Translations under genes and position numbers: made by a program
Assembly (NCBI RefSeq): GCF_033705735.1
Contig: NZ_CP131130.1
Span: forward strand, 1,181,001 to 1,245,000
DNA from: Shinella zoogloeoides
GTDB taxonomy: Bacteria; Pseudomonadota; Alphaproteobacteria; Rhizobiales; Rhizobiaceae
Length of the DNA stretch: 64,000 nt
Direction of reading: 5' to 3'
Notes under the pieces: model-generated
What the model was told of the DNA's origin: nothing
Database searches by the model: none
What the model saw: only the letters and a program-made list of their open reading frames with translations
In this document: piece after piece, positions 1-56,405 of the stretch
Position numbering within the stretch: position 1 is the stretch's first letter
Layout of the letters: each line of letters begins with the position of its first letter

Positions 1-597
1 GGCCGCGTCGAAGCGGGTGACGGCGATGGCCGGAAAGAGGGATGCCAGGAGGTCGGCGCGAGTGTCGGCCAGCTCGTTCAGCATGAGCGCGCCGCCGGTA
101 ATCTCCGCCAAGGCGGCAAGGAGTCCCGTGCCGGCAGAGGGCTCCAGCACGCGATCAGCAGGCGTGATCGCCGCAGCGGTTAGCGCGGCGACGCCGAGAG
201 GAAGCGGCGTCGAGAACTGCTGGAATGACTGGCTCTCCTCCGATCGCCGTGTGTGGGTGGGAAGAAGGGTGGCGATCTTCGCCAGCATCGGCAGCGCGGC
301 GGCCGGAGAGCCGGCTTTGCGGAAAAGCGCATTGCCGTACTTGCGGAGGAAGAGGACCGTCGCGACCTCGCAGGCCTCGTAGGCTGACTTCCAGTCCCAG
401 GCGCCCGTGGTATCGGAGGCACCGAACGCCGCTTCCATGGCGGCGCGCAGGATCTGCGCATCGACGCGCTGACCGCGTTCGAGATGGGGAAGCAAGAGCT
501 GTGCGGCTCGGAAAATAGCAGCAGAAGGATCAGGGAGACCGCTGAGGGGAAGCGGCGCTGCCAGCGGAGCTGCCGCTGATGCAGGGATCATCGTCAT
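1..597 (-). CDS. N-terminal part of a methyltransferase / strawberry-notch-like helicase (partial)
   Basis: The frame is open from an ATG at 597 to the left edge, so only the first 199 codons are present. Residues about 140-160 carry VLEPSAGTGLLAALA, a class I SAM-dependent methyltransferase motif I. It is preceded by FSTPLPLGVAALTAAA, which resembles the segment before the SAM-binding site in the large fused methyltransferase/DEAD-helicase proteins (strawberry notch-like, about 1,400 residues) of alphaproteobacterial mobile elements. The helicase half would lie outside the window, so the full assignment is inference. A GAGG sits 8 nt before the ATG, and the upstream leader contains a hairpin related to those before the ParB and DUF932 genes. 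Role: probably DNA modification or remodelling for the element. Confidence 0.75.
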   Translation of the reverse strand, partial: MTMIPASAAAPLAAPLPLSGLPDPSAAIFRAAQLLLPHLERGQRVDAQILRAAMEAAFGASDTTGAWDWKSAYEACEVATVLFLRKYGNALFRKAGSPAAALPMLAKIATLLPTHTRRSEESQSFQQFSTPLPLGVAALTAAAITPADRVLEPSAGTGLLAALAEITGGALMLNELADTRADLLASLFPAIAVTRFDAA

Positions 598-621
598 GGG
601 AAGAACCTCGGAGAGCGGATT

Positions 622-672
622 GGGACGAACCGGCGGCGCTCTCTCTCGACCGGACCGGCTCGAACCCGTCCC
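622..672 (-). promoter_or_regulatory. Leader hairpin before the helicase gene (divergent copy)
   Basis: On the minus strand GGGACG (672-667) pairs with CGTCCC (627-622). The loop contains a GAGAGAGAG purine run, as in the ParB leader. A GAGAGTGAGAG-like stretch lies just upstream at 679-690. It resembles the leaders at 4334-4380 and 5703-5748 but is less conserved and lies farther from its start codon. Confidence 0.4.
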
Positions 673-837
673 GGCCAACCTCTCACTCTGGCGCGCGGTA
701 TGACCGCCTGACCGCGCGGCCTTCCGAGGTGGGCCGTGCGGCGCTACACTCCTCCATCCAGCACATGGCGAAACTCGGCCCCGGCGATCGGGGACGCATG
801 TCCGCCCGACCGAGCGAGGCCCCGAAGGGAGACGGTG

Positions 838-1197
838 ATGAAGGGAAGTGTGATCGGCATGGTGGCCGGAGGATGCCTCGTAGTGGGCTTTGGCGCAGGC
901 TTCGCGCTCCGCCCGGTGATCACGCCCGGCGGCGCATCAGCCGCCGCTGTCGCTGGTGTCGCACAGCCGACCGAGGACGAGGCCATCGCGGCCGTCCGTC
1001 GCCATCGCCTTTTCACGGGGACGTCGCTGGCCAATGCGACGCTCAAGCTCGGGGAATGTTCGCCGGGCGGTGTTGGTCCTGGCGTGACGTGCATGACGCA
1101 GCTCACGATGGATTCCACGCGGGCGAACGCTACGCCGCAGAACCGGCCAGTCGGCTTCGCGCGCGTCAACGGGCAATGGGAAGTGGCTGTCTGGTAG
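838..1197 (+). CDS. Small conserved exported or membrane-anchored protein
   Basis: A 119-residue protein. Residues 5-25 form one hydrophobic segment rich in Gly, Val and Ala, like a signal anchor or uncleaved signal peptide. The rest is soluble, with two cysteines (GECSPGG and VTCMTQ) that could form a disulfide in the periplasm. The ATG at 838 is preceded by a GGGAG about 8 nt upstream; a GTG at 835 is an alternative start. No family is recognised beyond a general likeness to small periplasmic proteins of rhizobial and sphingomonad mobile elements. It is transcribed towards the minus-strand genes that follow. Confidence 0.6.
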   Translation: MKGSVIGMVAGGCLVVGFGAGFALRPVITPGGASAAAVAGVAQPTEDEAIAAVRRHRLFTGTSLANATLKLGECSPGGVGPGVTCMTQLTMDSTRANATPQNRPVGFARVNGQWEVAVW

Positions 1198-1200
1198 AAT

Positions 1201-1434
1201 TCAGGCAGCTATTTCGCCGCCCGTATTGGGCGGAAGGTAGGCGTCGTAGGGATTGCCATCAGCCAGATGGCCGAACGGCGTGAACATATAGTCGCCACCG
1301 TCACGGCCGACCGCACAGATGACATAGCGCGGCTCGCCGGTCGCGGCGTCCGTGCATTCCATCAACGCCAGATCGCCACTTTCCGCGGCGCGCAGCAGGG
1401 TTTGGAAATTGGCGCGCGCATGGTCGGGGATCAT
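1201..1434 (-). CDS. DUF6117-like small conserved protein
   Basis: A 77-residue protein beginning MIPDHARANFQTLLRAA. The central block GEPRYVICAVGRDGGDY and the following TPFGHLADGNPYDAY match what I recall of the DUF6117 family, common beside ParB and DUF932 genes on alphaproteobacterial plasmids and integrative elements. Its ATG overlaps the stop of the upstream gene (1431-1832) in an ATGA arrangement, so the two are translationally coupled. No catalytic motif or membrane segment is visible and the function is unknown. Confidence 0.7.
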   Translation of the reverse strand: MIPDHARANFQTLLRAAESGDLALMECTDAATGEPRYVICAVGRDGGDYMFTPFGHLADGNPYDAYLPPNTGGEIAA

Positions 1435-1832
1435 CGCGCATCTCCTTCGGCGAGCCAGCGGCCGGTGCTGATCCACTCGATCGTGCGGCCGGTGGAGAGA
1501 TCGAGCAGATGGGCGCCGCCGGAGAAACCGTCGACGACAGGTTCCGAGGCGACGCCGGCCCACTGAAAGCCCCAGGTGCCGGTGAGCCCGAACGTCTCCG
1601 CGCAGCGGGTGACGAAGGTGATCAGCAATTGCGGATCGGCGGTTCCGGGGTCGCGAAGCCAGAGGCGCGTCGCGCCGTGCTTGGGTGTCAGGGAGAGCAG
1701 GAACGGCTCGGCGGGCGGGTCCTCGCGACCGTTCTCGGCCATCAGCGCGATGTAGAGGTCGAAGGCCCGCGCGACATTGGCGACCGAGCCGACGTCGAGC
1801 AGGCAGGAGAAGCGGGTGAGAAAATCGGGCAT
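1431..1832 (-). CDS. Conserved hypothetical protein of the island
   Basis: A 133-residue soluble protein with no recognised domain. The start is well supported: AGGAG lies 6 nt before the ATG at 1832. It is rich in aromatic and acidic residues and has no signal peptide. Its stop overlaps the start of the DUF6117-like gene by 4 bases, giving a two-gene operon. A terminator hairpin just upstream (1848-1876) separates it from the next gene. Function unknown. Confidence 0.6.
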   Translation of the reverse strand: MPDFLTRFSCLLDVGSVANVARAFDLYIALMAENGREDPPAEPFLLSLTPKHGATRLWLRDPGTADPQLLITFVTRCAETFGLTGTWGFQWAGVASEPVVDGFSGGAHLLDLSTGRTIEWISTGRWLAEGDAR

Positions 1833-1847
1833 GTCGGGCTCCTGAAA

Positions 1848-1876
1848 CGAAAAGAGCCCGGCGCTGGGCCGGGCTC
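1848..1876 (-). terminator. Intrinsic terminator after the gene at 1905-2126
   Basis: GAGCCCGGC (1854-1862) pairs with GCCGGGCTC (1868-1876) around a 5-nt loop. On the minus strand it is followed by TTTTCG. Confidence 0.7.
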
Positions 1877-1904
1877 GGATGGGTCGGGATGGTGGTTGGA
1901 AGGG

Positions 1905-2126
1905 TCAGTAGCCGAACTGCCAGGACGGCCAGGATTGGCCGTCATCGGTGGCCGCCACGGCTTGAGCCAGGTACTCGGGATTGCCCTCGACCACGGTGGG
2001 GTCGCGGACAGGCGTCTCGTCGATGACGGTCACTCGGACAACGAGGTCATCCTCGACCTCGACATGGACCGGCACGAGGTACTGGAAGACGACGTGCCGG
2101 GTTGGCGTAGGGCTGGATTGCGCCAT
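1905..2126 (-). CDS. Small conserved hypothetical protein
   Basis: A 73-residue acidic protein beginning MAQSSPTPTRHVVFQYLVPV. It contains a hydrophilic central strand-rich stretch (VHVEVEDDLVVRVTVIDE) and ends WPSWQFGY. The minus strand upstream has AGGACC and CTTCCTCC-type sequence but no strong Shine-Dalgarno. It lies 59 bases after the ParB gene on the same strand and is probably part of the same island transcript, ended by the hairpin at 1848-1876. No family is recognised. Confidence 0.55.
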   Translation of the reverse strand: MAQSSPTPTRHVVFQYLVPVHVEVEDDLVVRVTVIDETPVRDPTVVEGNPEYLAQAVAATDDGQSWPSWQFGY

Positions 2127-2185
2127 GCGGAAGGTCCTTCAATTGGAGGAAGGTGCGGAGCGGCCGAAACCGCCCCGCGAGCCCA

Positions 2186-4321
2186 TCATTCGGCGGCGAC
2201 AAGGTGACGTTCGTCGTCGTCGCCGTTGGCCGGCGTTTCCGGATCTTCGTCAGTGCTCAGGAAGTCGGGCAGCTCGGCCGCCTCGGCTTCCCCGCCGCTC
2301 TGAGCGTCCGATGCAGGATCGGCTGCGAGATCAGCGAGTCGAAGCGGTTCGGGCAGCCAGCCGGTGTCGACCAACAGCCGCTCGGCCTCCTTGGCCATGT
2401 CGCCCTTCTTCAGATGATCGATAAGCTGCGCTGACGCGTCGCCCTTGGCTTCACGCACCGCTTCGAGAATGCGCGGCTTGGTCACCCGGCTGAGATAGTT
2501 GTCGACGGTCGGGCGCCATCCCGCTTCCGCCATGTCGAGACCGACAGCGCGTGCGATCCGACCGGCCTGCTTCAGCCGGCGCTCCAACCCGTGCTGAGAG
2601 ATGCCGGAGCCGCCGTAGCGGTCGACCTTCTCGGAGAGGGCATTGACGCCGTAAGAGACGCAATGCGCCAGCAGGGCCGTCCGGCTGGCGTCGTCAAGAT
2701 CGACCAGCCAGTTCCACAAGGCATCCTCATCCTGCGGGATGTCGGCCTCCCAGCCTTCCTGCCGTTCCGCCACCGACTTGGCGGACGTGCTGTCCTTCAG
2801 GTCGGCGGCCTGGACAGAGAAGAAGACGTGACGGACCGAGATCTCCAGGCACCCGCCGGAAGACGAGGTGCGGTGGAAGGTGTCGAGCACCAGCTTGTGC
2901 AGCAGCGCCGTGATGGCGACGTGCGGGTTGCCTGCCAGCGCATCCCGCAGCGCGAGGGTGCGGTGGGCCGTCAGCTCACTGACCAGGCGTTCGGGCAACG
3001 GCTTGACGACGTCGTCCTCCTCGTCCTCCGGTTCGGGCTGGCCGCCGATGGTGATGACCGCCCGCATCGGCTGCGCGTTCGGTGCGGGGCCTTCGGTTTC
3101 GCCGTCGCCGTTGGTCTCACGCTCGATGGGCGCCTCGTCCTCGGGACGGACATAGCCGCGCTCGACGGTCAGTCGGCCCGAGCTGTCGATGCTGACAAAG
3201 GCGCCAGCGCGCGCGATCTCGGCCGGATCGTAGAGGGTCGGCCGGTTCTGGAAGGCGGCGATCGCCGTCTCGATCTCCTCGAGCCGCAGATCGACCGCCT
3301 CCGGCAGGTCCTCGCCATCGTCATGCTCGGCGTAGAGCCGGTCCAGTTCCTCGGTCAGGGCCTCGTATGCGGCCTGTTCGTCGGCGGAGAGTTCGGAGCG
3401 TTCGCCCGCGATCCGGCGCAAACCGGTGGTGTGGCCGTAGGGGAAGTCCAGCGCGGCATCGATCCAGCGCCAGCCCTCAGCCGCGAGTTCCTCGGCAGCG
3501 GCGCCGATCTTCGCGGTGGCGAGGGTGTCGAGCAACGCCGGATCCTGCAGCCATCCGCCGTCGTCGGCCTGGAACAGGTCGCGCAGCGTTGCGCCGCCCG
3601 CTGCCTCATAGGCCTCGATCCCGACGAATTGCGCACGACGATCAGAGGCGCGCACCGCGCCCTCGGTCAGCATGCGCCGGATCTCATAGGGCTGGCGGCT
3701 GTAGGATCGCTGGATGGTCTCCCACACCTCCATCTGCCGGGCATGGTCATGCGACACCGTGAAGGCCATGAGCTGGTCAAGTGCGATGCCGTCCTCGGCA
3801 TAGACGTCAAGCAGCGCCGGAGCGACCGAGGCGAGCCGCAGTCGCTGACGGACCACGGCCGGGGTGACGTAGAAGCGGGCGGCGATATCCTCCTCGCCCA
3901 TGCCGCGCCCGATCAGCGCCTGGAAGGCCTTGAACTGATCGAGCGGATGGAGCGCCTCGCGGTGGACGTTCTCGGCAAGGCTGTCTTCCTCAGCCGGGAT
4001 CGCGGAGGCCGCGTCGCGGACGTTGCAGGGGACCGGTGCGGTCTTTGCGAGACGCTTGGCCTTGACCAGCAGTTCGAGCGCCCGGAATCGGCGACCGCCC
4101 GCTGGGACCTCGAAGATGCCGGTTTCCACACCCTCGCCGTCGAGCACAGGGCGGACGTTGAGGTTTTGAAGAAGACCACGGTGGCCGATATCCTCGGCCA
4201 GTTCGGAGATCGAGACGCCGGCCTTGGTCTTGCGGACGTTGGCCTGGCTCAGGATGAGCTTGTTGAAGGGGATGTCGCGACGCTCGCCAAGGGACGCGAT
4301 CTTCTGAACGGCGGTTGCCAT
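2186..4321 (-). CDS. ParB/RepB/Spo0J-family protein of a mobile element
   Basis: A 711-residue protein. Residues about 15-125 form the ParB N-terminal fold, with GGRRFRALELL near residue 76 and the arginine-rich ENVHREALHP motif near 116-126. A helix-turn-helix follows at about 143-166 (EEDIAARFYVTPAVVRQRL). The long C-terminal part, about 540 residues, is acidic and not recognised. It is far longer than chromosomal ParB (about 300 residues), and no ParA gene is visible beside it. A role in transfer, regulation or plasmid-like maintenance is therefore more likely than chromosome partition. The start at 4321 is chosen because GGAG lies exactly 9 nt upstream, next to a conserved leader hairpin. 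Confidence 0.85.
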   Translation of the reverse strand: MATAVQKIASLGERRDIPFNKLILSQANVRKTKAGVSISELAEDIGHRGLLQNLNVRPVLDGEGVETGIFEVPAGGRRFRALELLVKAKRLAKTAPVPCNVRDAASAIPAEEDSLAENVHREALHPLDQFKAFQALIGRGMGEEDIAARFYVTPAVVRQRLRLASVAPALLDVYAEDGIALDQLMAFTVSHDHARQMEVWETIQRSYSRQPYEIRRMLTEGAVRASDRRAQFVGIEAYEAAGGATLRDLFQADDGGWLQDPALLDTLATAKIGAAAEELAAEGWRWIDAALDFPYGHTTGLRRIAGERSELSADEQAAYEALTEELDRLYAEHDDGEDLPEAVDLRLEEIETAIAAFQNRPTLYDPAEIARAGAFVSIDSSGRLTVERGYVRPEDEAPIERETNGDGETEGPAPNAQPMRAVITIGGQPEPEDEEDDVVKPLPERLVSELTAHRTLALRDALAGNPHVAITALLHKLVLDTFHRTSSSGGCLEISVRHVFFSVQAADLKDSTSAKSVAERQEGWEADIPQDEDALWNWLVDLDDASRTALLAHCVSYGVNALSEKVDRYGGSGISQHGLERRLKQAGRIARAVGLDMAEAGWRPTVDNYLSRVTKPRILEAVREAKGDASAQLIDHLKKGDMAKEAERLLVDTGWLPEPLRLADLAADPASDAQSGGEAEAAELPDFLSTDEDPETPANGDDDERHLVAAE

Positions 4322-4333
4322 GTCGGGATACTC

Positions 4334-4380
4334 CACGACGGGCGGCCGAAAGACTCTCTCTCAGCCTCCAACCCGTCACG
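4334..4380 (-). promoter_or_regulatory. Conserved hairpin leader of the ParB-like gene
   Basis: On the minus strand CGTGACGGG (4380-4372) pairs with CCCGTCGTG (4342-4334), a 9-bp stem including G-U pairs. It encloses a purine-rich loop with GAGAGAGAG. The 3' arm runs directly into the GGAG ribosome-binding site (4334-4331). The DUF932 gene has the same arrangement, with the identical 5' arm CGTGACGGGTTG and the same 9-nt spacing from GGAG to ATG. Confidence 0.6.
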
Positions 4381-4496
4381 AAGCGAAGCGCCGCCCTCTT
4401 CCTCTAAAGGGGGCAGCGCCACGGACCGGCAAACCGGAAAGAGACGGAAGCGCAAAGCCGGAGACACGGAAAACCGCATCCCCGACTTCGCGGAAA

Positions 4497-5690
4497 TCAG
4501 GCCGCTCGATCGAGCAGCTTCTTGGCCTTGCCTTCCATGTCGAGGCGGGCGTCCTGATGCGGCTTGTCGCGCGCGACGGCAGTGATGCCCTGCACGAAAT
4601 CGAAGATGCTCTCGGGCGGACGGCCTTCCTCTGCCAGGACTGTGTCGATGATCGTGCCGGTCTCGGCCTTGGAGAAGCCGCGTCGGCGCAGGAAGTCGGT
4701 GCGGTCTTCGTCCGTCCTGGCGACGATCCGCTCGCGGGCGGCCTTGATGCCATTGACGAAAGGCAGGGGTGAGGAATTGGCGAAGTTCGCCAGCGCTGGC
4801 GCCGCCTCATGGGCGAAACGGTTGGCTGCATATTTGCTGTGGCGGATGCTGATCTCCTCGAAGTCCTCCACGCCCCACAAATTCCGATTCTGGCAGACCG
4901 CGCGGAGATAGAAGCTCGCCATGCCGAGCGTCTTGGCGCCGACCTCGGAGTTCCAGCAGTAGAAACCCCGGAAGTAGAAATCCGGCGAGCCGTCTGGCAG
5001 GCGCCCGGCCTCGATCGGATTCAAGTCGTCGACCAGGAACAGGAAGACGTCGCGGTCGGAGGCATAGAGCGTCGTCGTATCCTTGGTGATGTCCACGCGC
5101 GGATTGTAGATGCCGGTCGACCAGTCGAGCACGCCCGGCACTTTCCAGCGGGTGTCGCCCGTGCCGTTGCCGGCGATGCGCTGCACGGCCTCGACCAGCT
5201 CGTGGTCGAAGATGCGCCCATAATCCGGCCCGGTGACGGCGCGCAGCTCGACCCGGCCGTTGTCGGTTTCGAGTGTCTTGATCTGCTCGGCCCGATTGGA
5301 GGTGAGGCCATACTGCAGGTTGATGGCGGCAAGTGCGGCAGGGAGCTGTCGCAAATAGGCGGCGGGCGCACCGACTAGGCTGGCGAGCTGGCCGAAGGAC
5401 CAGTGTGTAGGCGCGATTGCCGCATCGGTGCCCGGCAGGATCAGCGCCAGCCGCTCTGAATCGTTGCGGTTCGCCTCGACGTGGATGAGCGCGCTCTCCA
5501 CCACCCGCGTCCGGCTGCGTTCGGTACGGTCGCGAACCGTATGGGCCAGCTCCGACAGGGAGAGGTAGCGCTCGTCGGCCGGACGCGAGAACCACTCCGA
5601 CGAGACGCGGCCGATCCGCTCCCCCCGGCTGACATCGACCTTGTAACCGCCGTTCGAGTCGCGGCGAGCGTCGAGGACCTGCATGTTCAT
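4497..5690 (-). CDS. DUF932 domain-containing protein (plasmid/phage type)
   Basis: A 397-residue protein of the DUF932 family, widespread on plasmids, phages and integrative elements; its biochemical function is not established. Recognisable features are THWSFGQLASLVGAPAAYLR (about residues 85-105), GPDYGRIFDHELVEAV (about 150) and the central DRDVFLFLVDDLNPIE block. The GTG and ATG choices upstream are rejected in favour of the ATG at 5690 (MNMQVLDARRDS), which has GGAG 9 nt upstream and the same leader hairpin as the ParB gene. It lies between ParB and the SRAP gene on the same strand, with about 175 bases to the ParB start. Confidence 0.85.
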   Translation of the reverse strand: MNMQVLDARRDSNGGYKVDVSRGERIGRVSSEWFSRPADERYLSLSELAHTVRDRTERSRTRVVESALIHVEANRNDSERLALILPGTDAAIAPTHWSFGQLASLVGAPAAYLRQLPAALAAINLQYGLTSNRAEQIKTLETDNGRVELRAVTGPDYGRIFDHELVEAVQRIAGNGTGDTRWKVPGVLDWSTGIYNPRVDITKDTTTLYASDRDVFLFLVDDLNPIEAGRLPDGSPDFYFRGFYCWNSEVGAKTLGMASFYLRAVCQNRNLWGVEDFEEISIRHSKYAANRFAHEAAPALANFANSSPLPFVNGIKAARERIVARTDEDRTDFLRRRGFSKAETGTIIDTVLAEEGRPPESIFDFVQGITAVARDKPHQDARLDMEGKAKKLLDRAA

Positions 5691-5702
5691 GGGATCAATC
5701 TC

Positions 5703-5748
5703 CATGACGGGCGTCGGAGACCTCTTCTCCAACCTTCAACCCGTCACG
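5703..5748 (-). promoter_or_regulatory. Conserved hairpin leader of the DUF932 gene
   Basis: On the minus strand CGTGACGGG (5748-5740) pairs with CCCGTCATG (5711-5703) over 9 bp. The loop contains GGAGAAGAGG. The GGAG ribosome-binding site (5703-5700) overlaps the base of the stem. Compared with the ParB leader, the stem differs only by a compatible change (U-A here, U-G there), and GAGAGTGAGAGAG lies just upstream at 5761-5776. Confidence 0.6.
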
Positions 5749-5880
5749 GAAAACCGGTCCACTCTCTCACTCTCAGCGGGGCGTTGCGGGGCAGCCGCCC
5801 CGCAGAAGGGGTCGGCCGAGACCGAGGGCTCGGACGCAGGGGAAGGCTTTCCCCTTCGGCCGCTTCGAAAAGCTGATCGT

Positions 5881-6387
5881 TCAGATTGCAAAGGTGGCTT
5901 GCGCCGATTTTTCCCGCAGCCGCGAAACGGCGAAAGCCCCTGCCGGCAGCGGCTTCAGCAAGTCCTCTTCGCGCGTGGTGAGATCGAGCCAGGCCAAGCG
6001 CTGATCGCGTCGTAGGACGGCCATCTGCCGATCATGATAGGGCGCGACATCGTCGTTCGCCGTGGTCGTCAGGATCGCATAGGCCTCCGGCCAATCCTGC
6101 GTCACCGGCCGCCAGATGCCCGCGAAATAGAACCAGTCGCCACTCGTCAGCGAGAAACTGTAGTGCTTATCCCGGCTGCGATGGCGGAATTCGGACGCAG
6201 GGATGAGGCAGCGATGGCTCGGGAAAGTCCGACCCTCCGCCCGGGTGACGGTGAACGGCCGCCCGCCATTCTCGCGGGGCTGAAGTCCCCACGGCAGCTC
6301 CACCATCTCAACATCGCCGCCGTTGCGCCTTATGATTACCCGGCGTTCGCTGAGGGATGCTTCGGAATCGAATACCGTCGCGCTCAT
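5881..6387 (-). CDS. SRAP (SOS response-associated peptidase)-like protein lacking the N-terminal Cys
   Basis: A 168-residue member of the SRAP/HMCES/YedK family, which in its canonical form shields abasic sites in single-stranded DNA through a covalent link to Cys2. The family core is visible: a PWGLQPRENGGRP segment, HRCLIPASEFRHRS with the usual Glu, FYFAGIWRP and APYHDRQMAVL with the usual His. The protein starts MSATVFDSEASL, so the catalytic Cys2 is absent. It is transcribed divergently from a canonical SRAP gene (6447-7037) and shares a LexA box at 6395-6409. It may be a regulatory or non-crosslinking paralogue; that is inference. Confidence 0.8.
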   Translation of the reverse strand: MSATVFDSEASLSERRVIIRRNGGDVEMVELPWGLQPRENGGRPFTVTRAEGRTFPSHRCLIPASEFRHRSRDKHYSFSLTSGDWFYFAGIWRPVTQDWPEAYAILTTTANDDVAPYHDRQMAVLRRDQRLAWLDLTTREEDLLKPLPAGAFAVSRLREKSAQATFAI

Positions 6388-6394
6388 GATCTGT

Positions 6395-6409
6395 GAACAT
6401 AGCCAGAAC
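6395..6409. promoter_or_regulatory. LexA (SOS) box between the two SRAP genes
   Basis: GAAC-N7-GAAC, the complement of the alphaproteobacterial LexA operator GTTC-N7-GTTC, with both half-sites perfect. It lies 8 bases from the start of the minus-strand SRAP gene and 38 bases before the plus-strand one, placed to repress both. Confidence 0.8.
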
Positions 6410-6446
6410 ACAGCGGCCGGACAAGAGCGGTCGAAGCGGAGGACAC

Positions 6447-7037
6447 ATGTGCAATGACTACCGACTTATGGTGGACGTGGCGTCGATCGTTGAGGACTTC
6501 GCCGACCTCAAGATCAAGATCCGCTTCGGCGAAGGCACGCCGAACATTGAAGCGCGCGAGGACATCAAGATCACCGACATGGGTCCGATCGTCCGAACGG
6601 TCGAGGGCGTTCGCGGCGACGGCGACATGCTGCAGCGGCGATGGAGCTGGCCAGGCCAGAACAAGCGCCCGGTCTACAATTTCCGCTCCGATGGCCGCGA
6701 ATTCACCTCGAACCGCTGCCTGATCGTGGCTGATGGCTTCTACGAGTTCACGGACCCCGCCGAGAAGGGAAAGAAGCGGAAGGACAAGTGGCTGTTCACC
6801 AAGCGCGGCCAGCCGATCATCTGCATCGCCGGCATCTGGCGCGCCACGAAGGATGTCGGCGAGGCCTTCACCATGCTCACGATGGAGCCCGGACCCGACA
6901 TCGCGCCCTACCATGATCGGCAGATCGTCATCCTCGAACGCGACGCCTGGGCCGATTGGCTTGACCCCTCGGTTCCGGCTCAATCACTGATCCGTCCGTT
7001 GGCGGCCGGCACGCTGCAAGTGGAGCAGGTTGGATGA
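6447..7037 (+). CDS. SRAP-family protein (abasic-site protein, HMCES/YedK-like)
   Basis: A 196-residue SRAP protein. The start at 6447 gives MCNDYRL, placing the catalytic Cys at position 2 as in the family, and GGAGGA lies just upstream. The Glu in VADGFYEFTDP and the His in APYHDRQIVIL are both present. Known members form a thiazolidine link to abasic sites in single-stranded DNA and so protect replication forks. It ends 6 bases from the convergent end of dnaE2. With its LexA box and the imu operon it forms a damage-response block on the island. Confidence 0.88.
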   Translation: MCNDYRLMVDVASIVEDFADLKIKIRFGEGTPNIEAREDIKITDMGPIVRTVEGVRGDGDMLQRRWSWPGQNKRPVYNFRSDGREFTSNRCLIVADGFYEFTDPAEKGKKRKDKWLFTKRGQPIICIAGIWRATKDVGEAFTMLTMEPGPDIAPYHDRQIVILERDAWADWLDPSVPAQSLIRPLAAGTLQVEQVG

Positions 7038-7043
7038 CGCGTT

Positions 7044-10000
7044 CTACCGGAAATCCCGTGTCTTCACTTTGATCGAGTCGATGTGGAGGTCGGGAATGTA
7101 GATGTCGCGCGTGCGCAGGCCCTTTGGCGCCAGTCCACGCGGATCGGGCGTCGGCGAGCCGTGATGGAATTCATCGCCGCGTCCGTGCGGCAGCGGAAAG
7201 GCCGCATCCCGATCACCGACGCTGGCCAGGTCGGCCGAGAGATCGGTGAGGCGCTGTGCGACCAGATGCACGACTTCGCCCTCGCGCTGGATGCGTCCGC
7301 GCACGGCGAACATTCCGGCCGACAGGATGATACGGCGGTTCTTCTCGAAGACCTGCGGCCAGACGACGAGGTTGGCGATGCCGGTTTCGTCTTCGAGGGT
7401 TATGAACATCACGCCCTTCGCGCTGCCGGGCCGCTGCCGGACCAGCACGATGCCGGCGGCCTCCAGCCAACGGCCGTCGCGGGCATCCATCGCCTGCTGA
7501 CAGGTGAAGATTCGCCGTCGGCGCAGATCGTCGCGCAGGAAGGCGACCGGGTGGCTGCGCAGCGACAGCCCGATATGGCCGTAGTCCTCCACCACCTCCG
7601 AGCCTGCCGTCATGGGCCGAAGGCTGACGGCGGCCTCACTGATCTCGGGCACGAACTGCTGTTCATGGGCGGTGGCGGCCGCGAAGAGGGGCAAGGGTTC
7701 ATCGCGTAGCGCTTTTATTGCCCAGAGCGCCTCACGCCGCGCCATGCTGAGTGACGGGCGGAAGCCGTCGCCCTCGGCGATCTGCACCAGGGCGGCGACC
7801 GGCACGCCGGCGCGGCGCCATAGATCGTCGATCGAGGCAAAGGGCGTATCAGCCCGCGCGCTGACGATGGCGGCGGCGTTGGCGTTCGCCAGCCCCTTGA
7901 CCATGCGCAGGCCGAGACGGACCGCGAAGCGGCCATCGTCGCCGGTCGGCTCCAAGGTGCAGTCCCAGCGCGAGGCGTTGATGCAGACCGGCCGGACCTC
8001 GACGTGATGGTCCTGGGCGTCGCGCACGATTTGAGCGGGGGCATAGAAGCCCATCGGCTGGGAATTGAGCAGCGCCGCGCAGAAGATGTCGGGGTGCCAG
8101 CATTTGAGCCACGCCGAGGCGTAGGCGATTAGCGCAAAAGAGGCTGCGTGGCTTTCCGGAAACCCGTAACTGCCGAAGCCTTCGAGCTGCTTGAAGGTGT
8201 GTTCGGCGAACTCCGGTTCATAGCCGTTGTCGACCATGCCGTTGATGAGCTTGTCCCGGAAGTGGGAGACGCCGCCGGTGAACTTGAAGGTCGCCATCGA
8301 CTTGCGCAGCATGTCGGCCTCGCCGGGCGTGAAGCCGGCGCATTCGATCGCGACGCGCATCGCCTGTTCCTGAAACAGCGGGACGCCGAGCGTCTTGCCG
8401 AGCACCCTCTCCAGTTCGGGCTTGGGATAGTGGACCGGCTCCAGCCCCTCGCGGCGGCGCAGATAGGGATGCACCATGTCGCCCTGGATTGGGCCGGGCC
8501 GGACGATGGCGACCTGTACGACGAGATCGTAAAAGGTCCGCGGCCTGAGGCGCGGCAACATCGACATCTGCGCGCGGGACTCGATCTGGAAGGTGCCGAG
8601 GGTGTCCGCCTTCCTGATCATCGCATAGGTGCGCGGGTCCTCAGCCGGGATGGTCGCAAGATCGAGTTGGACCCCCTTGTGGTCGGCCAGGAGGTCGAGG
8701 CCGCGCTTCATGCAGGTCAGCATGCCCAAGGCCAAGACGTCGACCTTCATGAATTTCAGCGCATCGATGTCGTCCTTGTCCCACTCGATAACCTGGCGAT
8801 CGACCATGGCGGCGGGTTCGATCGGCACCAGCTCATCGAGCCGGTCATGGGTCAGCACGAAGCCGCCGGGATGCTGGGAGAGATGGCGTGGCGCGCCCAT
8901 GAGCTGGCGGGCGAGATCGAGAGCGAGGCGAAGCCGGCGATCGCCGAGGTTGAGGTTCAGCTCTTCGACCTGCTTGGGCTCGACGCCTTCCTCCGACCAG
9001 CCCCAGACCTGCGAGGACAGGGTCTTGATCAGGTCCTCGGTGAGGCCGAGCGCCTTGCCGACGTCACGCAGCGCGCCCTTTGAGCGGTAGCGGATGACGG
9101 TCGAGCAGAGCGCGGCATGGTCGCGGCCATAGGTCTCGAAGACCCACTGCATAACGATCTCGCGCCGCTCATGTTCGAAGTCGACGTCGATGTCGGGCGG
9201 TTCGCGCCGCTCCTCGCTGACAAAGCGCTCGAACAGGAGGTCGTTACGGCCGGGATCGATCGAGGTGATGCCGAGCACATAGCAGACGGCCGAATTCGCG
9301 GCCGAGCCGCGGCCCTGGCACAGGATGTCCTTGGAGCGCGCGAACCGCACGATGCTGTTCACCGTCAGGAAATAAGGGGCGTATTGCAGCTTCTCGATAA
9401 GCCTCAGCTCGTGCTCGAGCGCGGCGCGGACGCTGTCCGGCAGGCCCTCGGGGTAGCGTTCTGCGGCACCTTCCCAGGTCAGCTTGGCCAGCGTCTCTTG
9501 TGGCGTCAGCGCCGGGTCGTCGCGTTCCTCGGGGTATTGGTAGGCCAGCTCGTCGAGCGAGAAGCGGCAACGCTCCGCGATCTGCAACGTGCGGGCCAGG
9601 GCCTCGGGATAGCGGCCGAACAGCCGGTGCATCTCCTCCGGCGGTTTGAGGTAGCGATCGGCGTGCCGCTCACGCCGTTCGCCCAGCGCATCGATGGTGA
9701 CGTTGTGACGGATACAGGTGACGACGTCCTGAAGGATGCGGCGGTCGGGCGCGTGGAACAGCACGTCGTTGGTGACGATGGTCGGCACCCGCATCCGGGT
9801 CGCGAGGTTGGACAGTTCGTGCAGACGGAGCTGGTCGTTCGGCCGGCGGCGCAGCGACAGTGCCATATAGGCGCGGTCGCCAAAGGCCTCGCGCAACCGC
9901 CGCAGGCGCAGGCCGCATCCGTCGTCGGCGTGGTCCGGCAAGAGAACGGCAAGTAGGCCCTCGCGATAGGCGACGAGATCAGCCCATTCGAGATGACATT

Positions 10001-10316
10001 TCGCCTTGCCGCCGCGCTTCTTGCCGAGCGACAGCAGACGGCAGAGCCGCGAATAGGCTGGTCGGTCGGTCGGATAGACCAGCACCGACATGCCGTCGGC
10101 GAGGTCGAGACGGCAGCCGACGACGAGGCGTACGCCCGTCGTCTTTGCCGCCTCATGGGCGCGGACGATGCCGGCCAGCGAGTTGCGGTCGACGATGGCC
10201 AGCGCCTCGATGCCGAGCAGGGCTGCGGTGGCGAACAGCTCGTCGCAGCCGCTCGCGCCCCGCAGGAAGCTGAAATGGGAGGTGACCTGGAGTTCGGCAT
10301 AGCGGGGGCCGATCAT
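7044..10316 (-). CDS. dnaE2: Error-prone DNA polymerase III alpha subunit DnaE2 (ImuC)
   Basis: A 1,090-residue C-family polymerase, the length typical of DnaE2 rather than replicative DnaE1. The N-terminal PHP domain begins with [15 protein letters not shown]. The catalytic carboxylate motif [12 protein letters not shown] is at about residues 374-385, the helix-hairpin region [18 protein letters not shown] follows, and an OB-fold ([19 protein letters not shown]) is near the C-terminus. Its ATG overlaps the stop of imuB by 4 bases. With ImuA and ImuB it performs translesion synthesis and damage-induced mutagenesis. The operon is controlled from the LexA box at 12541-12555. Confidence 0.95.
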
Positions 10317-11836
10317 CCGAACACCCCATGCAGGAACCAGCGGTGCGATCCAGTGGCCGCATCCTCACCATCGCCGGCGCGGTAGATCCAGTAGCGTTCG
10401 CCGGCGTCATCCTCGATCCGGAAATAGTCCCGCACGGCGACCAGTTCGGCGTCGCGCTTCCACCATTCTCCGAACAAGCGCTCGGGGCCGTCGGCGCGCT
10501 TCACGCGTCGCCGGACACCGCGCCAGGTGAAGGACACCGGAGGATGATCGGGCAGCAGCGCGACGGTCTCGATCAATTCGGGACGATCGAGCAGACGCGG
10601 CGGTCGCGGCCAGTCGCCGGACCATGTCGCCCCGGTCTCGGGCGACATGGCGGGCACGCGACAGACGGAGCGCTCGGGGACGTCGCTGGCGACCGGCGCG
10701 GCGCGATAGATGCGACTGCCGCCAACCCGGTTGGCGAGCGTATCGACGAGATCGGAGACGTCCGGCACGGTGTCGTCGATAAGGGAGGTGATGGTCTGCT
10801 TGCCGTCGATCGGTTCGGCGATTGTCGCTGTGAGCGTCAGGATTTCGATACCGAAGCCGGGTTCGATGGTCTCGATCTTGTCGCACAGAAGCCGGGTCAG
10901 GCGCTTGACGTCGCGCACCGGCAAGGCCGTGCCGACGCGGACCGCCTGCATGATGTTGTCGACGCGATGGCAGAGCAGGTCGAGGCGCCGCGCGCCGAGG
11001 CCGCGTTCTTCGAGCGCCGCGCAGAGCTGGACCACCAGCTTGCCGATATAGCGGGCGATGGTCTCGGCCGCGCCGATCGGTTCAGGAAAGCTACGGCGGA
11101 CCTCGATCAGGTCGTCCGGCCGGATCGGGTCGATGAGTTCGGGCGCGAGGCCGAGCGCCTGGTCGATCCGGCGGCCTAGCTCGGGTCCGAAGCGAAGCGT
11201 GAGCGGGGCGCGCGGCTGCGCGACTAGATCGCCAATGCGGTCGAAGCCCAGCGTCCGCAGATTGTGGACCAGGGCCGGCGGCAGCCGGAGCGCCTTGATC
11301 GGCAGCGGCGCGATCGCGGCTTCGACGGCTCTCGGCGGGGAGATCAGGGGCGACCGGCCGGCGTATCGCGCGAGGGCGTGCGCCGCGCCCCAGGTGTCGG
11401 CGACGGCGGCGCGGGCGACGATCCCCGAGCCCGCCAGGCGGTCGACCATGCCCGACAGCATGGCGTGTTCGCCGCCGTGCAGATGATCGGCGCCGGTCGT
11501 GTCGATGACGATGCCGTCAGGCAGGCAGGCGGCGACGATCGGGGCGTAGCGTTGCAGGACCCAGAGCGCGAGGCGGTCGAGTGCCTCGGCGTCGGCCGTG
11601 GGAGCGGCGTCCTGAACGAGGAGGCCCGGGACGAGGACCTGGGCCCTGGTCGCCGGCATCCCCACGCGCAGGCCGGCGGACTGGGCCGCGGCATCCGCCG
11701 CGACCACCACCCGCCTTCTCCCGTCATGGCCGATCAGGACGAGCGGCGCCTCAGCCGGAGGCGCCGCGTCGCCGGCCGTCCTGCGCACGCGATCTGTTGA
11801 CCATGTGGGCAGGAAGAGCGAGACGACCCGTGTCAT
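10313..11836 (-). CDS. imuB: ImuB, Y-family polymerase-like protein of the mutagenesis cassette
   Basis: A 507-residue Y-family-like protein starting [16 protein letters not shown]. In known systems ImuB lacks polymerase activity and links DnaE2 and ImuA to the beta clamp. The palm-like segment [15 protein letters not shown] and the following HhH region ([20 protein letters not shown]) are clear. The C-terminal part from about residue 330 fits the variable interaction region. The ATG at 11836 lies inside the end of imuA, giving an 86-base overlap. Its stop overlaps the dnaE2 start, so all three genes are translationally coupled. Confidence 0.92.
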
Positions 11837-12503
11837 CGCACGCCTCCAATTCGAAATCAGCACTCTCGCCCGCGCGAGCGCGGATCAGCTCGACAAGCCA
11901 GCGGTGTCGGCCGACTCCCGGAACGGGCAAAGTGGGTGAAGGCAGGGCCGAGACCCGCCAGCGGGTCATGGCGGCGGTTGGCTGGCCGAAGTCCGTGGCC
12001 TCCGTTTGTCGCCGCCAGCGGCGTAGCGCCAGGCCGATTGCACCGGTGCCCTCGGCGGCGAGTTGAAGGCGACGCGAGGCGGTCATCGACAGGCGGCCGA
12101 TTTCTGCGACGACGGCGCCGAGTCCGCCATGACGCAGGCCTTCCTCGACACAGGCCAGGACGGTCTTGTCGTCCCCGGCCTCAACATAGATCACGCGATC
12201 TGGCGGGAGACCGGCTTGGGCCAACGCCGGTGCGAAGAGGTCGGGACGGGTGATGCACCACAGCACCTTGCCCTTGGTGCGCGCAGCAATCCCGGCGGCA
12301 AAGAGCGCGGCGGCGGCACCGTCGATCGCGCCGTTACCGCCGCCCGCGATCTCGTGCAGCGCGCCGAGCGCCAGGCCTTCGCCGGGGAGTCGTGAATCCA
12401 CCTCGGCAATTCCAAAGGGAAGCACCGATTTGACGCGCCGGCTTTTGCCTTCGATCTTCTCGATCTGCGCGCGCAAGGATTCTATGGCGGGCTCGGGCCG
12501 CAA
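11751..12503 (-). CDS. imuA: ImuA, RecA-fold accessory protein of the mutagenesis cassette
   Basis: About 250 residues. ESLRAQIEKIEG at the N-terminus is followed by LPFGIAEVDSRLPGEGLALGALHEI, a RecA/SulA-like core typical of ImuA. The C-terminus overlaps imuB. The start is uncertain because there is no ATG in frame. A TTG at 12536 would lie only 4 bases after the LexA box, leaving no room for a leader. A TTG at 12503 has AGGAA about 5 nt upstream and is preferred. ImuA supports the ImuB-DnaE2 mutasome in SOS mutagenesis. Confidence 0.85.
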   Translation of the reverse strand: MRPEPAIESLRAQIEKIEGKSRRVKSVLPFGIAEVDSRLPGEGLALGALHEIAGGGNGAIDGAAAALFAAGIAARTKGKVLWCITRPDLFAPALAQAGLPPDRVIYVEAGDDKTVLACVEEGLRHGGLGAVVAEIGRLSMTASRRLQLAAEGTGAIGLALRRWRRQTEATDFGQPTAAMTRWRVSALPSPTLPVPGVGRHRWLVELIRARAGESADFELEACDDTGRLALPAHMVNRSRAQDGRRRGASG

Positions 12504-12540
12504 GTTCGTTCCTGACCTCCAAGGGCGGGTTGACAAGCAT

Positions 12541-12555
12541 GTTCGCTATTTGTTC
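12541..12555. promoter_or_regulatory. LexA (SOS) box upstream of imuA-imuB-dnaE2
   Basis: GTTCGCTATTTGTTC is a perfect GTTC-N7-GTTC alphaproteobacterial LexA operator. On the minus strand a TTGACT at 12578-12573 could be the -35 element, placing the LexA box across the expected -10/+1 region, a common layout for LexA repression. Confidence 0.85.
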
Positions 12556-12622
12556 TACTTTTCGATTGGAAGAGTCAAGGTGGTCGCGGATTCGATCACG
12601 TTTCCGATCACGGGTGAGGGAG

Positions 12623-13216
12623 CTATCCCAGACCGACCTTATATCGGGCAAACAGTTCGCCGAGACGGTCGCGGTTTGATAGTATGGGCGTGGAAGCGAT
12701 CACAGCCAGACGGTCGTGCGCCCGCTCGAACAGCGCGACGCAGAGTTCCCCGTTGTCGTGGTTGGAGCGGTAAACGACGCCATCGGCGCCAGCCGAATGA
12801 TCATGGATGGCGCGCGACCACTCCTGCGCAACCGAGTGCGGACCGCTGGTTACAATGCCTGTAGCACCGATGCGAGCCAAGCCAGGGCCGTGAACCGAGA
12901 CGAGCCGCAAAGGCGATGTGACCTCGATCTCGCAGAATGATCGGGCCTCAAGAAAGCTTAGTGCAACGAAACGGGCGCCGATAGAGCGAAGGCACGTTTC
13001 GGCGAACGCGCCTTCAATCGTTTGTGAGAGGTAGGAGACGCCATACTGGCGTGTCGGATCATCAAAGCGGTTGCCGCCAGAGGACCCGAAAAAGATCGGG
13101 CTAAGTTCCGTGCGATGGATGCGGACCAGCCGAGCGCCTTTATCGATGATCTCTATGGGCAGATCGCGGGCGGCGAAATCGGCGGGCGGCAGCGGTCTCG
13201 GATCAGGCGGCGCCAT
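12623..13216 (-). CDS. RES-domain toxin (NAD+ phosphorylase type)
   Basis: A 197-residue RES-family protein. The family's conserved Arg, Glu and Ser residues can be placed in LVRIHRTELSPIFFG, GAFAETCLRS and AQEWSRAIHDH. Characterised RES toxins degrade NAD+ and are neutralised by an Xre-type antitoxin encoded next to them. The ATG at 13216 lies inside the antitoxin gene, with a 14-base overlap, so production is coupled to the antitoxin. It ends about 70 bases before the LexA box of imuA. Confidence 0.85.
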   Translation of the reverse strand: MAPPDPRPLPPADFAARDLPIEIIDKGARLVRIHRTELSPIFFGSSGGNRFDDPTRQYGVSYLSQTIEGAFAETCLRSIGARFVALSFLEARSFCEIEVTSPLRLVSVHGPGLARIGATGIVTSGPHSVAQEWSRAIHDHSAGADGVVYRSNHDNGELCVALFERAHDRLAVIASTPILSNRDRLGELFARYKVGLG

Positions 13217-13892
13217 GTTCGCCGTAAGCCGCTGCCGCCCTGACAACCTCATCTGTCTGACCTTTGCGGAGCAGATCGATCGGTCGCTGGCCTTCGAGCC
13301 TGGCGTCGCCAGTCAGCATGAAGTTGACTCGCATCCAGGCATCTTCGACGGTGAAGGCGTCCAGCACGTCGCGGATGCCCCGCAATAGCCCATTCTTGCC
13401 GATCTGAAACGCGGGGTAGACATAGCCGTCGCCTACATCGAGCCAGAACACTTGGCTGCGCTCGCGTTTACGGCCGAGACCCTGCGGCGTGATGCCAAGG
13501 TGCTCAGCGAGCTGCTGCGCGGAAAGAACACCGCCTTCGGCTTTGAGCATTTCCCGCTTCATTTCGGAGCCGCGCAATAGCGCTTCGGTCAATGGGTCGG
13601 GCCGATCGGGCAGAATCTCGGCGCCGATGGCTGCCGCCTCGTGAAGTGAGCTGAAGAGAACGTCAGTGTCCGTTGACGCGCCGACCGCCGCCAGGAGCCG
13701 ATCACGCGGCATGCGCTCGGCGATGCGCGCGAGGGCCCTGCCGCTACGCAGCACGAAAGCCGCTACGAGATCCTCGCTTGATCCGGGTTCGGGGCGCCGG
13801 ACACGCGTCGACGCGGCAGAGGTTGGTTCGCCGGTGAAGTTCGTTGCGCGGCTGCGACGACGCTGAGTACCGGCTGAAGCGGGAGGCGTCAT
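13203..13892 (-). CDS. Xre/MbcA/ParS-type antitoxin of the RES toxin
   Basis: A 229-residue protein. The central segment LSAQQLAEHLGITPQGLGRKRE (about residues 123-144) is a helix-turn-helix, and the C-terminal PIDLLRKGQTDEVVRAAAAYGE is the DUF2384/MbcA-ParS toxin-binding signature. It is longer than many antitoxins because of a basic, low-complexity N-terminus. It lies directly upstream of the RES gene and overlaps it, as in known pairs. The AT-rich promoter region upstream (about 13920-13960, with TATATATAG) is where autorepression would act. Confidence 0.82.
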   Translation of the reverse strand: MTPPASAGTQRRRSRATNFTGEPTSAASTRVRRPEPGSSEDLVAAFVLRSGRALARIAERMPRDRLLAAVGASTDTDVLFSSLHEAAAIGAEILPDRPDPLTEALLRGSEMKREMLKAEGGVLSAQQLAEHLGITPQGLGRKRERSQVFWLDVGDGYVYPAFQIGKNGLLRGIRDVLDAFTVEDAWMRVNFMLTGDARLEGQRPIDLLRKGQTDEVVRAAAAYGEHGAA

Positions 13893-14139
13893 GAGATGAG
13901 ATCCCTTGAGAATGTTCAATTGTCCTGCTATATATAGCTCATGAAAATGGAAACTTCAATCACCCGCGCAGACCGAAGCCAAACGTCGCCGATTCTTGGA
14001 ATTTGCACTATTCCAGAGCCCGAAAACGACGGCAGGCGTAACCGCATGGCGTCCGGAGTATCCAAATTCCCGATGCAAAGAATGCCAGTAAATCATTGAT
14101 ATCAGTGAAGTTTAGATAGGAGTATGCGATTATGCGCTT

Positions 14140-55747: not shown

Positions 55748-55980
55748 GTCTTTACCCCTTTCTGGGCTTCCTGCTGGGCGGCCGCTCGTCCTTGGCGCCG
55801 CCCCGATCTGATGAAATGGAATATACGCTGCATTGCCGAAATGAACAGCGCTCGAATAGCACAGCACCTATGCGTTTCATGCATGTCAAGCGGAAATTTC
55901 GGCAAAATTCTGGCTAAATTCCGGGCTCGCGCCACAAAGGTAAACGAAGCTATGCGCTGAGCTGTGAGTGCAGTGCAAAA

Positions 55981-56105
55981 AGCAACGCCCGCCGGGGGAG
56001 GAGGTCCGGCGGGCGTTGCTGGTCTCGATTGGCAGCTTGGGAGGAGGAGAGGCCGCCAATCCTGTCGGGGACGTTGGGAGGAGGAGATCGTCGCCCGACC
56101 GATGA
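55981..56105 (-). ncRNA. Alpha-r14-type sRNA (NfeR1/CcsR/cuckoo-like), copy 1
   Basis: Read on the minus strand there are three hairpins. The first (56099-56064) pairs GTCGGG-CGTC with GACG-CCCGAC. The second (56061-56027) pairs GATTGGC with GCCAATC. The third (56020-55981) has a perfect 15-bp stem and ends in a T-run, so it is the terminator. Each loop shows CTCCTCCTCCC or CCTCCTCCC, an anti-Shine-Dalgarno sequence. Three such loops in about 120 nt define the alpha-r14 family of rhizobia (NfeR1 in Sinorhizobium), related in motif to CcsR/cuckoo RNAs. They are thought to pair with ribosome-binding sites of transport and metabolism mRNAs. Ends are approximate. Confidence 0.82.
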
Positions 56106-56280
56106 GGACTATATAGATCCGGCCATCGCGGCGCGGTAGGGCCCGGTTGGAATGGCACCCATGCGCGCGGCGCATGTATTGCGCAAGGATTGGGCAGATG
56201 CCTCGAACGTGCGGGCTGGCCCCAACGATTTTTCCGGAAAATGCCGCGGCTCCGGCCGCTCGCCATGCGCAGGGCGCAAA

Positions 56281-56405
56281 AATAACGCCCGCTGGGGGAG
56301 GAGATCCAGCGGGCGTCATAATAATGATTGGCAACTGGGAGGAGGAGTGTTGCCAATCGTATCGGAGGGACGCTGGGAGGAGGAGTGCGTCGCTCCGAAT
56401 TTCTG
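56281..56405 (-). ncRNA. Alpha-r14-type sRNA (NfeR1/CcsR/cuckoo-like), copy 2
   Basis: The same three-hairpin design as copy 1. Hairpin one is 56398-56362 (TCGGAG-GCGTC with GACGC-CTCCGA). Hairpin two is 56358-56326 (GATTGGCAAC with GTTGCCAATC). Hairpin three is 56316-56285 (11-bp stem), followed on the minus strand by TATTTTTG. All loops carry CTCCTCCTCCC or CTCCTCCC. Sequence outside the loops differs while pairing is kept, which supports a real structured RNA. It is 160 bases upstream of copy 1 on the same strand. Confidence 0.82.

Follow-up and report, generated by a model that had tools for sequence, protein, structure and literature searches.

A conserved AGAG hairpin leader before unrelated genes of alphaproteobacterial mobile elements: a candidate translation switch

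Unrelated genes on ICEs and conjugative plasmids of Alphaproteobacteria share a 5′ leader whose hairpin, in the commoner form, abuts, and is predicted to continue through, the Shine-Dalgarno (SD) sequence. We propose that these leaders, which we call AGAG leaders, form a single family of translation switches that act in cis on establishment genes and have a putative trans-acting reader, and we give this reading a probability of roughly 0.6. The analysis centers on a 64,000-nt stretch of Shinella zoogloeoides DNA (NZ_CP131130.1; hereafter, the window), in which a first-pass annotation had described nearly identical leaders on a ParB-like and a DUF932 gene. That observation is real, and larger than first reported.

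Both leaders lie on the minus strand. In each of them, CGTGACGGGTTG, at 5748-5737 for the DUF932-like gene and at 4380-4369 for the ParB-like gene, is followed by CCCGTC-A/G-TG running into GGAG, and 9 nt separate GGAG from the ATG (spacers ATTGATCCC and TATCCCGAC). The first-pass annotation had these positions right, as it had the 9-bp stem that keeps pairing by U-A in one leader and U-G in the other. Its account of the extent of the leaders held for the two hairpins as placed and for the stem abutting GGAG; it had missed an inner 8-bp stem with an AGAGG or AGAGU loop, a AGAGNNAGAG box 14-16 nt upstream, the predicted continuation of the stem through GGAG, and a third, related leader at 595-691 on the minus strand. 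The leaders of the first two genes are here termed type 1 and the third type 2:

5764..5773, minus strand: purine box AGAGTGAGAG of the DUF932-like leader (type 1)
5749..5763, minus strand: linker of the DUF932-like leader; in the predicted fold, its UUUUC 3′ end closes the Shine-Dalgarno sequence by pairing with the GGAGAU stretch
5700..5748, minus strand: type-1 hairpin of the DUF932-like gene, with GGAG (5703-5700) at its end and the apical loop AGAGG at 5725-5721
4497..5690, minus strand: DUF932-like gene; its product, counted from the ATG at 5690, has 397 aa
4396..4405, minus strand: purine box AGAGGAAGAG of the ParB-like leader, inside an upstream hairpin of the predicted fold
4331..4380, minus strand: type-1 hairpin of the ParB-like gene, with GGAG (4334-4331) at its end and the loop region AGAGT at 4357-4353
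2186..4321, minus strand: ParB-like gene, 711 aa
595..691, minus strand: type-2 leader, with the box AGAGTGAGAG (680-689), a hairpin with the GAGAGAGAG loop region (639-647), a CUCUCC tract (610-615), GAGG (606-609) and the ATG (597-595)
1..597, minus strand: 5′ part of the strawberry-notch helicase/methylase gene, which continues past the left end of the window

The pattern GTGACGGGTT-N15-40-CCCGTC matched twice in the window and never in 100 dinucleotide shuffles, and a wider pattern (N10-40) had four exact copies genome-wide, compared with none for the reversed pattern. The genome contains seven matches to the covariance model R1 and four to the type-2 model R3. The DUF932-like hairpin scored 72.6 bits with R1 (E 2.7e-14) and 88.5 bits with model R2 (over 5700-5776), and the ParB-like hairpin 64.4 bits with R1 and 79.4 bits with R2 (over 4331-4408), both hairpins belonging to the training set of R1; the type-2 leader, which belongs to the training set of R3, scored 91.0 bits with that model (E 1.8e-16). 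Folding z-scores were -2.27 for the DUF932-like and -4.04 for the ParB-like leader, and the type-2 leader was no more stable than shuffles (+0.64). A terminator scan of 500-6100 gave four terminator-like sites, none of them at the hairpins. As for the proteins, the DUF932-like product matches PF06067 weakly, under the cut-off, and phrog_1362 at 1.1e-47, and the ParB-like product matches PF02195 with 23.0 bits, below the cut-off of 26.3, and phrog_7783 at 1.5e-77; PF13872 and PF13871 lie in the downstream part of the helicase/methylase gene (locus L287). Separately, we observed that the box of several ArdC and DUF932 leaders often has, on its 5′ side, a strong GC hairpin (TGCGGGG...CCCCGCA) and then ACGCCCC, for example at 5785-5804 of the window.

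The first-pass annotation had suggested a covariance search, and the models that we built find the leader family well beyond the two window sites. R1 was derived from alignment A1, which comprises 23 unique hairpins from loci of the S. zoogloeoides genome and its relatives; 5 of the 38 initial places, which on reading did not have the inner hairpin, were left out, as were places without a collected locus. At E 0.001, R1 had matches in 87 of 397 sampled genomes of the order. Of 159 matches, 150 entered alignment A2; they come from 99 of the 185 loci collected at that stage. R2, which represents box plus hairpin, was built from the 59 sequences of alignment A3 (65 rows had been selected, of which 6 were omitted; for the type-2 alignment A4, 2 of 54 were omitted) and matched in 29 of 385 genomes of the class and in 34 of 398 phylum-wide genomes, all 34 of them in the same class. 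R3 matched in 18 of 150 sampled genomes of the order. When named genomes were scanned with the exact pattern, at least 120 stretches matched; among the 80 matches listed, one was a Streptomyces record (L077, a chance match), a few had unspecific names, and the rest had alphaproteobacterial names, which presumably fall in the Rhizobiales, Rhodobacterales, Sphingomonadales, Caulobacterales, Acetobacterales and Rhodospirillales. Three viral contigs also carried the exact pattern, one of them (L183) without an R1 match.

The genes under the leaders are diverse. The type-1 sites number 248, or 247 once a chance site at 61230 of the window is discounted. They precede ParB-like (107), ArdC (73) and DUF932-like genes (40), a family of 182-aa proteins (16) and 12 others, the chance site being counted among these 12. 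Type-2 leaders precede strawberry-notch helicase/methylase genes and ArdB/KlcA genes. Two Pfam anti-restriction families are thus found under leaders, ArdC (PF08401) and, with type 2, ArdB/KlcA (PF03230); further leader genes encode PAPS reductase, DUF6878 and AlpA. The members of the 182-aa family that were tried (L114, L013, L031 and others) had no Pfam, NCBIfam or PHROG match, and we regard the family as a candidate establishment or anti-defence protein. Elsewhere in the S. zoogloeoides genome (C1:3489245; L189 1474-1600), a leader is followed by a 12-aa open frame, apparently the remnant of an ArdC gene.

A protein search for the ParB-like product gave 30 loci, and R2 matched directly upstream in all 25 that were at least 60% identical to the window protein. 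Among the five homologues at 45-52% identity no match was convincing, four giving nothing of note and one (L317) weak matches of 24.1 and 19.5 bits. The more distant homologues L249-L254 are plasmid genes, three of them divergent alphaproteobacterial, two enterobacterial and one betaproteobacterial, and their best E was 1.5. On an IncI plasmid of E. coli, the ParB homologue sits between ssb and psiB-psiA, a stretch of IncI plasmids that we take to be the leading region. The same strand carries, to the left of the window, the remainder of the helicase gene and genes for toprim, a YspA-like SLOG protein, two DUF736 proteins and a RovC-type regulator (PF10074, which we take to be the former DUF2285), together with a peptidase S26, a transglycosylase, a DUF3363 protein (relaxase domain just under the cut-off) and TraG. 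This setting is in keeping with an ICEMlSym-type backbone, as far as the excerpted text of PMC8627217 describes it. The leader genes point toward the relaxase gene at the window and in pLN1, pMHa and pMspAR07c. Beside the leader genes, at 5881-13919 of the window, we also observed two SRAP genes (one per strand) and genes for a DNA polymerase III alpha-type protein, an ImuB-like protein and a RES-domain protein. DUF736 genes of three other loci share another conserved upstream stretch (L192 36498-36607, L193 34724-34833, L256 35315-35424), which is AT-rich and has a small hairpin (CATCGGGAATGGTCCCGATG or similar) plus CCGAAGGAG.

We characterized the type-1 fold by covariation. Its layout is the purine box AGAGNNAGAG, a two-part covarying hairpin with an AGAG loop, and GGAG. 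Covariation appeared in 6 of the 8 inner pairs of A1, compared with 0 of the 9 outer pairs. The first-pass annotation had held that a lack of covariation in a wide alignment would speak against its proposal; in the 59 sequences of A3, both sides had changed in 12 of 17 pairs, 4 of these in the outer 9-bp stem. Moreover, 95.0% of the cells of A3 were paired; with the partner displaced by 1-3 columns, the share fell to 38-48%. Of 500 shuffles, a control that ignores relatedness, none was as high on any of the five measures. The 111 distinct rows fitted to R1 agree with A3 in an alignment that leans toward its model. The outer stem occurs in variants such as GTGGCGGG/CCCGCC, GTGACGGA/TCCGTC and GTGGCGAG/CTCGCC, indicating that pairing rather than sequence is kept. 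On the coding strand, 123 cells were G-U and 20 were A-C, an excess from which the fold appears to be selected in the coding-sense RNA. In 200 of 206 sites, the distance between the start codon and the first G of GGAG is 11-14 nt. Compensated secondary structure, as expected for a cis-regulatory mRNA leader, was found in type 1 and, with mixed slid controls, in type 2, and the leaders stand directly 5′ of the start codons of several unrelated genes. The comparison shows a conserved hairpin of the RNA strand and two GA-rich motifs, the upstream box and the apical loop, that stay constant while the stems drift. We also considered a switch within type 1, by pairing of the AGAG box with the 3′-side arm of the inner stem; it is not supported, because changes in that arm are matched by its partner in the stem, whereas the box does not change.

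The nucleotides 5′ of the type-1 stem are predicted to pair with GGAG and the spacer, so that the SD sequence is predicted to be mostly closed. In the predicted ensembles, the mean probability of GGAG being unpaired was 0.17 (247 sites), compared with 0.44 with composition-shuffled hairpins (first 120 sites). Pairing of one of the last three bases of GGAG to the ten nucleotides that precede the stem had a mean probability of 0.75, and in 194 of 247 MFE folds the linker paired with two or more of three SD bases. GCUU is predicted to pair with GAGU in the ParB-like window leader, as the UUUUC linker end is with the GGAGAU stretch in the DUF932-like one. Among 221 distinct sites, linker-spacer pairing was above shuffles at -4, -6 and -7 (0, 0 and 1 of 500 shuffles reached the observed value), with no excess at -5 or -8; the register slid by one paired equally at -4 (0.66 vs 0.67) and better at -7 (0.64 vs 0.59). 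For the ParB leaders alone, -4 and -6 exceeded all shuffles, and a same-direction slide by one was clearly lower there; for ArdC alone or DUF932 alone, no position was clearly above shuffles. The 182-aa family pairs poorly, with all three SD bases paired in only 2 of 16 folds. We conclude that the type-1 stem is predicted to continue through GGAG, leaving the SD sequence mostly paired, a model with which the partial covariation is consistent.

We then turned to the AGAG motifs. Of 247 type-1 sites, 233 have the box AGAGNNAGAG, and in the MFE folds of 149 of these 233 it is enclosed by an upstream helix of 4 bp or more. The distance from box to stem is 14-16 nt in 218 of 248 sites, a fixed geometry. 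Among the 247 folded hairpins, the apical loop with its closing pair reads GAGAGGC in 152 cases; in 32 it reads AGAGU. Weak R2 matches, of 13.3 to 21.3 bits, also lie directly 5′ of strawberry-notch helicase/methylase genes in six plasmids. These type-2 leaders have the same box and a GAGAG-containing loop in a different fold, mostly with a CUCUCC tract before the SD sequence. Box plus loop motif were present at 67 of 75 helicase/methylase gene starts among the collected loci, a count that excludes matches starting after query residue 60, and in 27 of 30 helicase/methylase loci picked by protein search alone. The combination of box, AGAGAG and an SD-started open reading frame occurred at 314 unique sites in the collected loci and at none in reversed sequence; 314 is not a frequency, because the loci were mostly selected for carrying leaders.

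In A4 (52 type-2 sequences), both sides had changed in 7 of 13 pairs, a value reached by 2 of 500 shuffles, and 93.2% of cells paired, compared with 45-59% with slid partners. Slides of +2 and +3 gave 7 and 6 double-changed pairs with 15 and 17 such cells (observed, 7 and 17), with far fewer cells paired than in the observed register. The type-2 fold is therefore less certain than that of type 1, since these slides give about as many double changes. Its SD sequence is only half paired (0.54). With R3, trained on type 2 only, the two type-1 leaders of the window came second, at 21.1 bits, and third, at 16.0 bits (next match, 13.9), and R2 ranked the window type-2 leader third (16.6 bits; next, unrelated match, 16.2); the cross-matches between the types are reciprocal and weak. 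The type-2 box can pair with the CUCUCC tract, a pairing that we leave undecided because box and tract are both near-invariant and the tract is missing in L139 and L194, where box and loop are kept. As a further observation, a 133-aa protein without a Pfam match is encoded at 1431-1832 of the window (minus strand), preceded by a terminator-like hairpin at 1876-1854; a 138-aa protein of locus L343, similar to it by eye, bears its own type-2 leader.

If the type-1 fold hides the ribosome-binding site, as predicted, unrelated genes, two anti-restriction kinds among them, may share one translational switch. The predicted closed SD sequence, the two AGAG motifs in two folds and the two anti-restriction families fit such a switch. 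The closed leader would keep translation low in the resident element; a putative trans-acting factor, more likely a protein that binds RNA than a CU-rich sRNA, would read the AGAG motifs, and its binding would shift the leader between the closed and the open state. The factor may either open the switch or hold it. One signal would then govern anti-restriction and other establishment proteins, most usefully in a burst when the element enters a new host; it is gene content that suggests this timing. The comparison supports the suggestion of the first-pass annotation that element genes may be under common post-transcriptional control.

The same features might instead constitute a translation or mRNA-stability element that acts constitutively, the hairpin and purine tracts guarding the 5′ region and helping ribosome loading (standby) without a dedicated regulator. 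This would account for the purine-rich motifs, for the strong hairpin beside the SD sequence and for a class-wide spread without a partner gene found. However, the SD sequence is predicted to be mostly paired rather than presented, and the sequences of loop and box are kept in two different folds; we consider a purely constitutive role rather unlikely.

A CU-rich sRNA of the host or the element could also kiss the AGAG loops and so open or close the leader. The loops are exposed (the best AGAG 4-mer has a mean probability of 0.91 of being unpaired; 241 sites), and the alphaproteobacterial ar14 sRNAs, a family with anti-SD loops, are at hand: two adjacent copies (RF02344) lie on the minus strand of the window at 55980-56103 and 56280-56403, with 93.5 and 124.8 bits. 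By contrast, a CTCTNNCTCT scan of nine element stretches for an antisense partner returned leader complements and scattered sites and no dedicated complement of the box, and we judge an sRNA reader to be quite improbable.

A DNA operator, which the first-pass annotation had itself raised as a counter-explanation, would have the inverted repeat and the AGAG direct repeat bound as duplex by a transcription factor. Inverted repeats and spaced direct repeats are typical operator shapes, and the FseA-binding sequence at the rdfS promoter is an inverted repeat, according to the excerpted text of PMC10359603. Nevertheless, the wobble asymmetry, the compensated drift of the stems and the fixed start-codon spacing described above make an operator very unlikely. 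It is pairing that is conserved in the hairpin, the AGAG box alone being a conserved sequence, and a simple scan of 500-6100 for sigma-70-like promoters, which covers that promoter type only, found 0 sites. A Frpo-type single-stranded DNA promoter, at work while the element enters as T-strand, would suit the gene class, shared with F/IncI genes to which we ascribe leading-region status, and the orientation of the genes toward the relaxase gene, but it is just as improbable, as the hairpin stops just before the start codon with no -35/-10 match in the sigma-70-like scan of 500-6100, the template strand would bear A-C mismatches where the coding strand has G-U, and the template strand, folded as DNA, is hardly more stable than shuffles (z -1.70 and -0.12, the first still forming the hairpin).

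As translation switches, the AGAG leaders would be without a named counterpart, in agreement with the first-pass annotation, which could match them to no RNA motif. An Rfam search of the whole window at curated cut-offs placed no family at a leader, and permissive Rfam scans of leader stretches and 16 loci gave, in the leader stretches, only sub-cut-off matches to unrelated families. We found no description of the leader in the literature searched or in Rfam, a comparison that lies outside the list of a 2017 study, which is said to contain 224 candidate RNAs. The radC RNA motif (RF01754) is found in Proteobacteria in the 5′ regions of genes for anti-restriction proteins, methylases and integrases and of radC and, as a structured element in a similar gene setting, is the nearest Rfam family in that respect. 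It reached at least 40 bits in 0 of 150 genomes and had no match at all in the S. zoogloeoides genome or in the leader stretches scanned; sub-cut-off matches of 26.9 and 26.3 bits (G055 and G113) lie away from the leaders listed for R1. The STAXI model, which is included in Rfam, had no match in the scans of the window, the leader stretches and the 16 loci. STAXI motifs (Weinberg et al. 2010), whose function is unknown, resemble the leaders in lying near ssb, anti-restriction and integrase genes; they are described, in the excerpted text, as repeated pseudoknots, often with UUCG loops, whereas the leaders have AGAG-loop hairpins (PMC2864571).

The closest functional parallel is EGeRS1 of the pLS20-family Bacillus plasmids, likewise a shared sequence before the ribosome-binding sites of several establishment genes. 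According to PMC8708921, EGeRS1 spans 420-750 bp with inverted repeats just before the ribosome-binding sites of establishment genes, including ardC; transient expression is presumed, and the mechanism is called unknown by its authors. The leaders described here, compared with EGeRS1 by description, are 77-100 nt long, have a predicted SD-closing fold and occur in Alphaproteobacteria. The Frpo/ssi elements are likewise shared hairpin elements on leading-region genes, but they are outlined as single-stranded DNA promoters with -35/-10 within the fold (PMC11541004, in part), whereas the leaders are RNA-sense folds reaching the SD sequence. FseA and RdfS of ICEMlSym act in the same general ICE setting and exert transcriptional control of rdfS/intS in the excerpted texts (PMC10359603, PMC11963761), with no hairpin leader described there (the word ‘hairpin’ occurs 0 times in the excerpt of PMC10359603).

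Resident silence and the post-transfer switch-on of establishment genes are open questions in many conjugative systems. We tentatively extend the translation-switch reading to a post-transcriptional establishment regulon, in which a two-loop AGAG code carried by at least two RNA folds would be recognized by a dedicated reader, and ribosome-binding sites closed in the resident element would open on entry; we lean against rather than toward this fuller version. If it is true, any gene with the AGAG code, including the DUF932-like, ParB-like and 182-aa families, would be a candidate anti-defence or establishment gene. Because a covariance model finds the RNA easily, the leader may be used as a flag for unrecognised genes of this kind. 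The AGAG leaders represent a compact, testable candidate switch in Alphaproteobacteria, one that would link unrelated genes, two families of which are known anti-restriction families.
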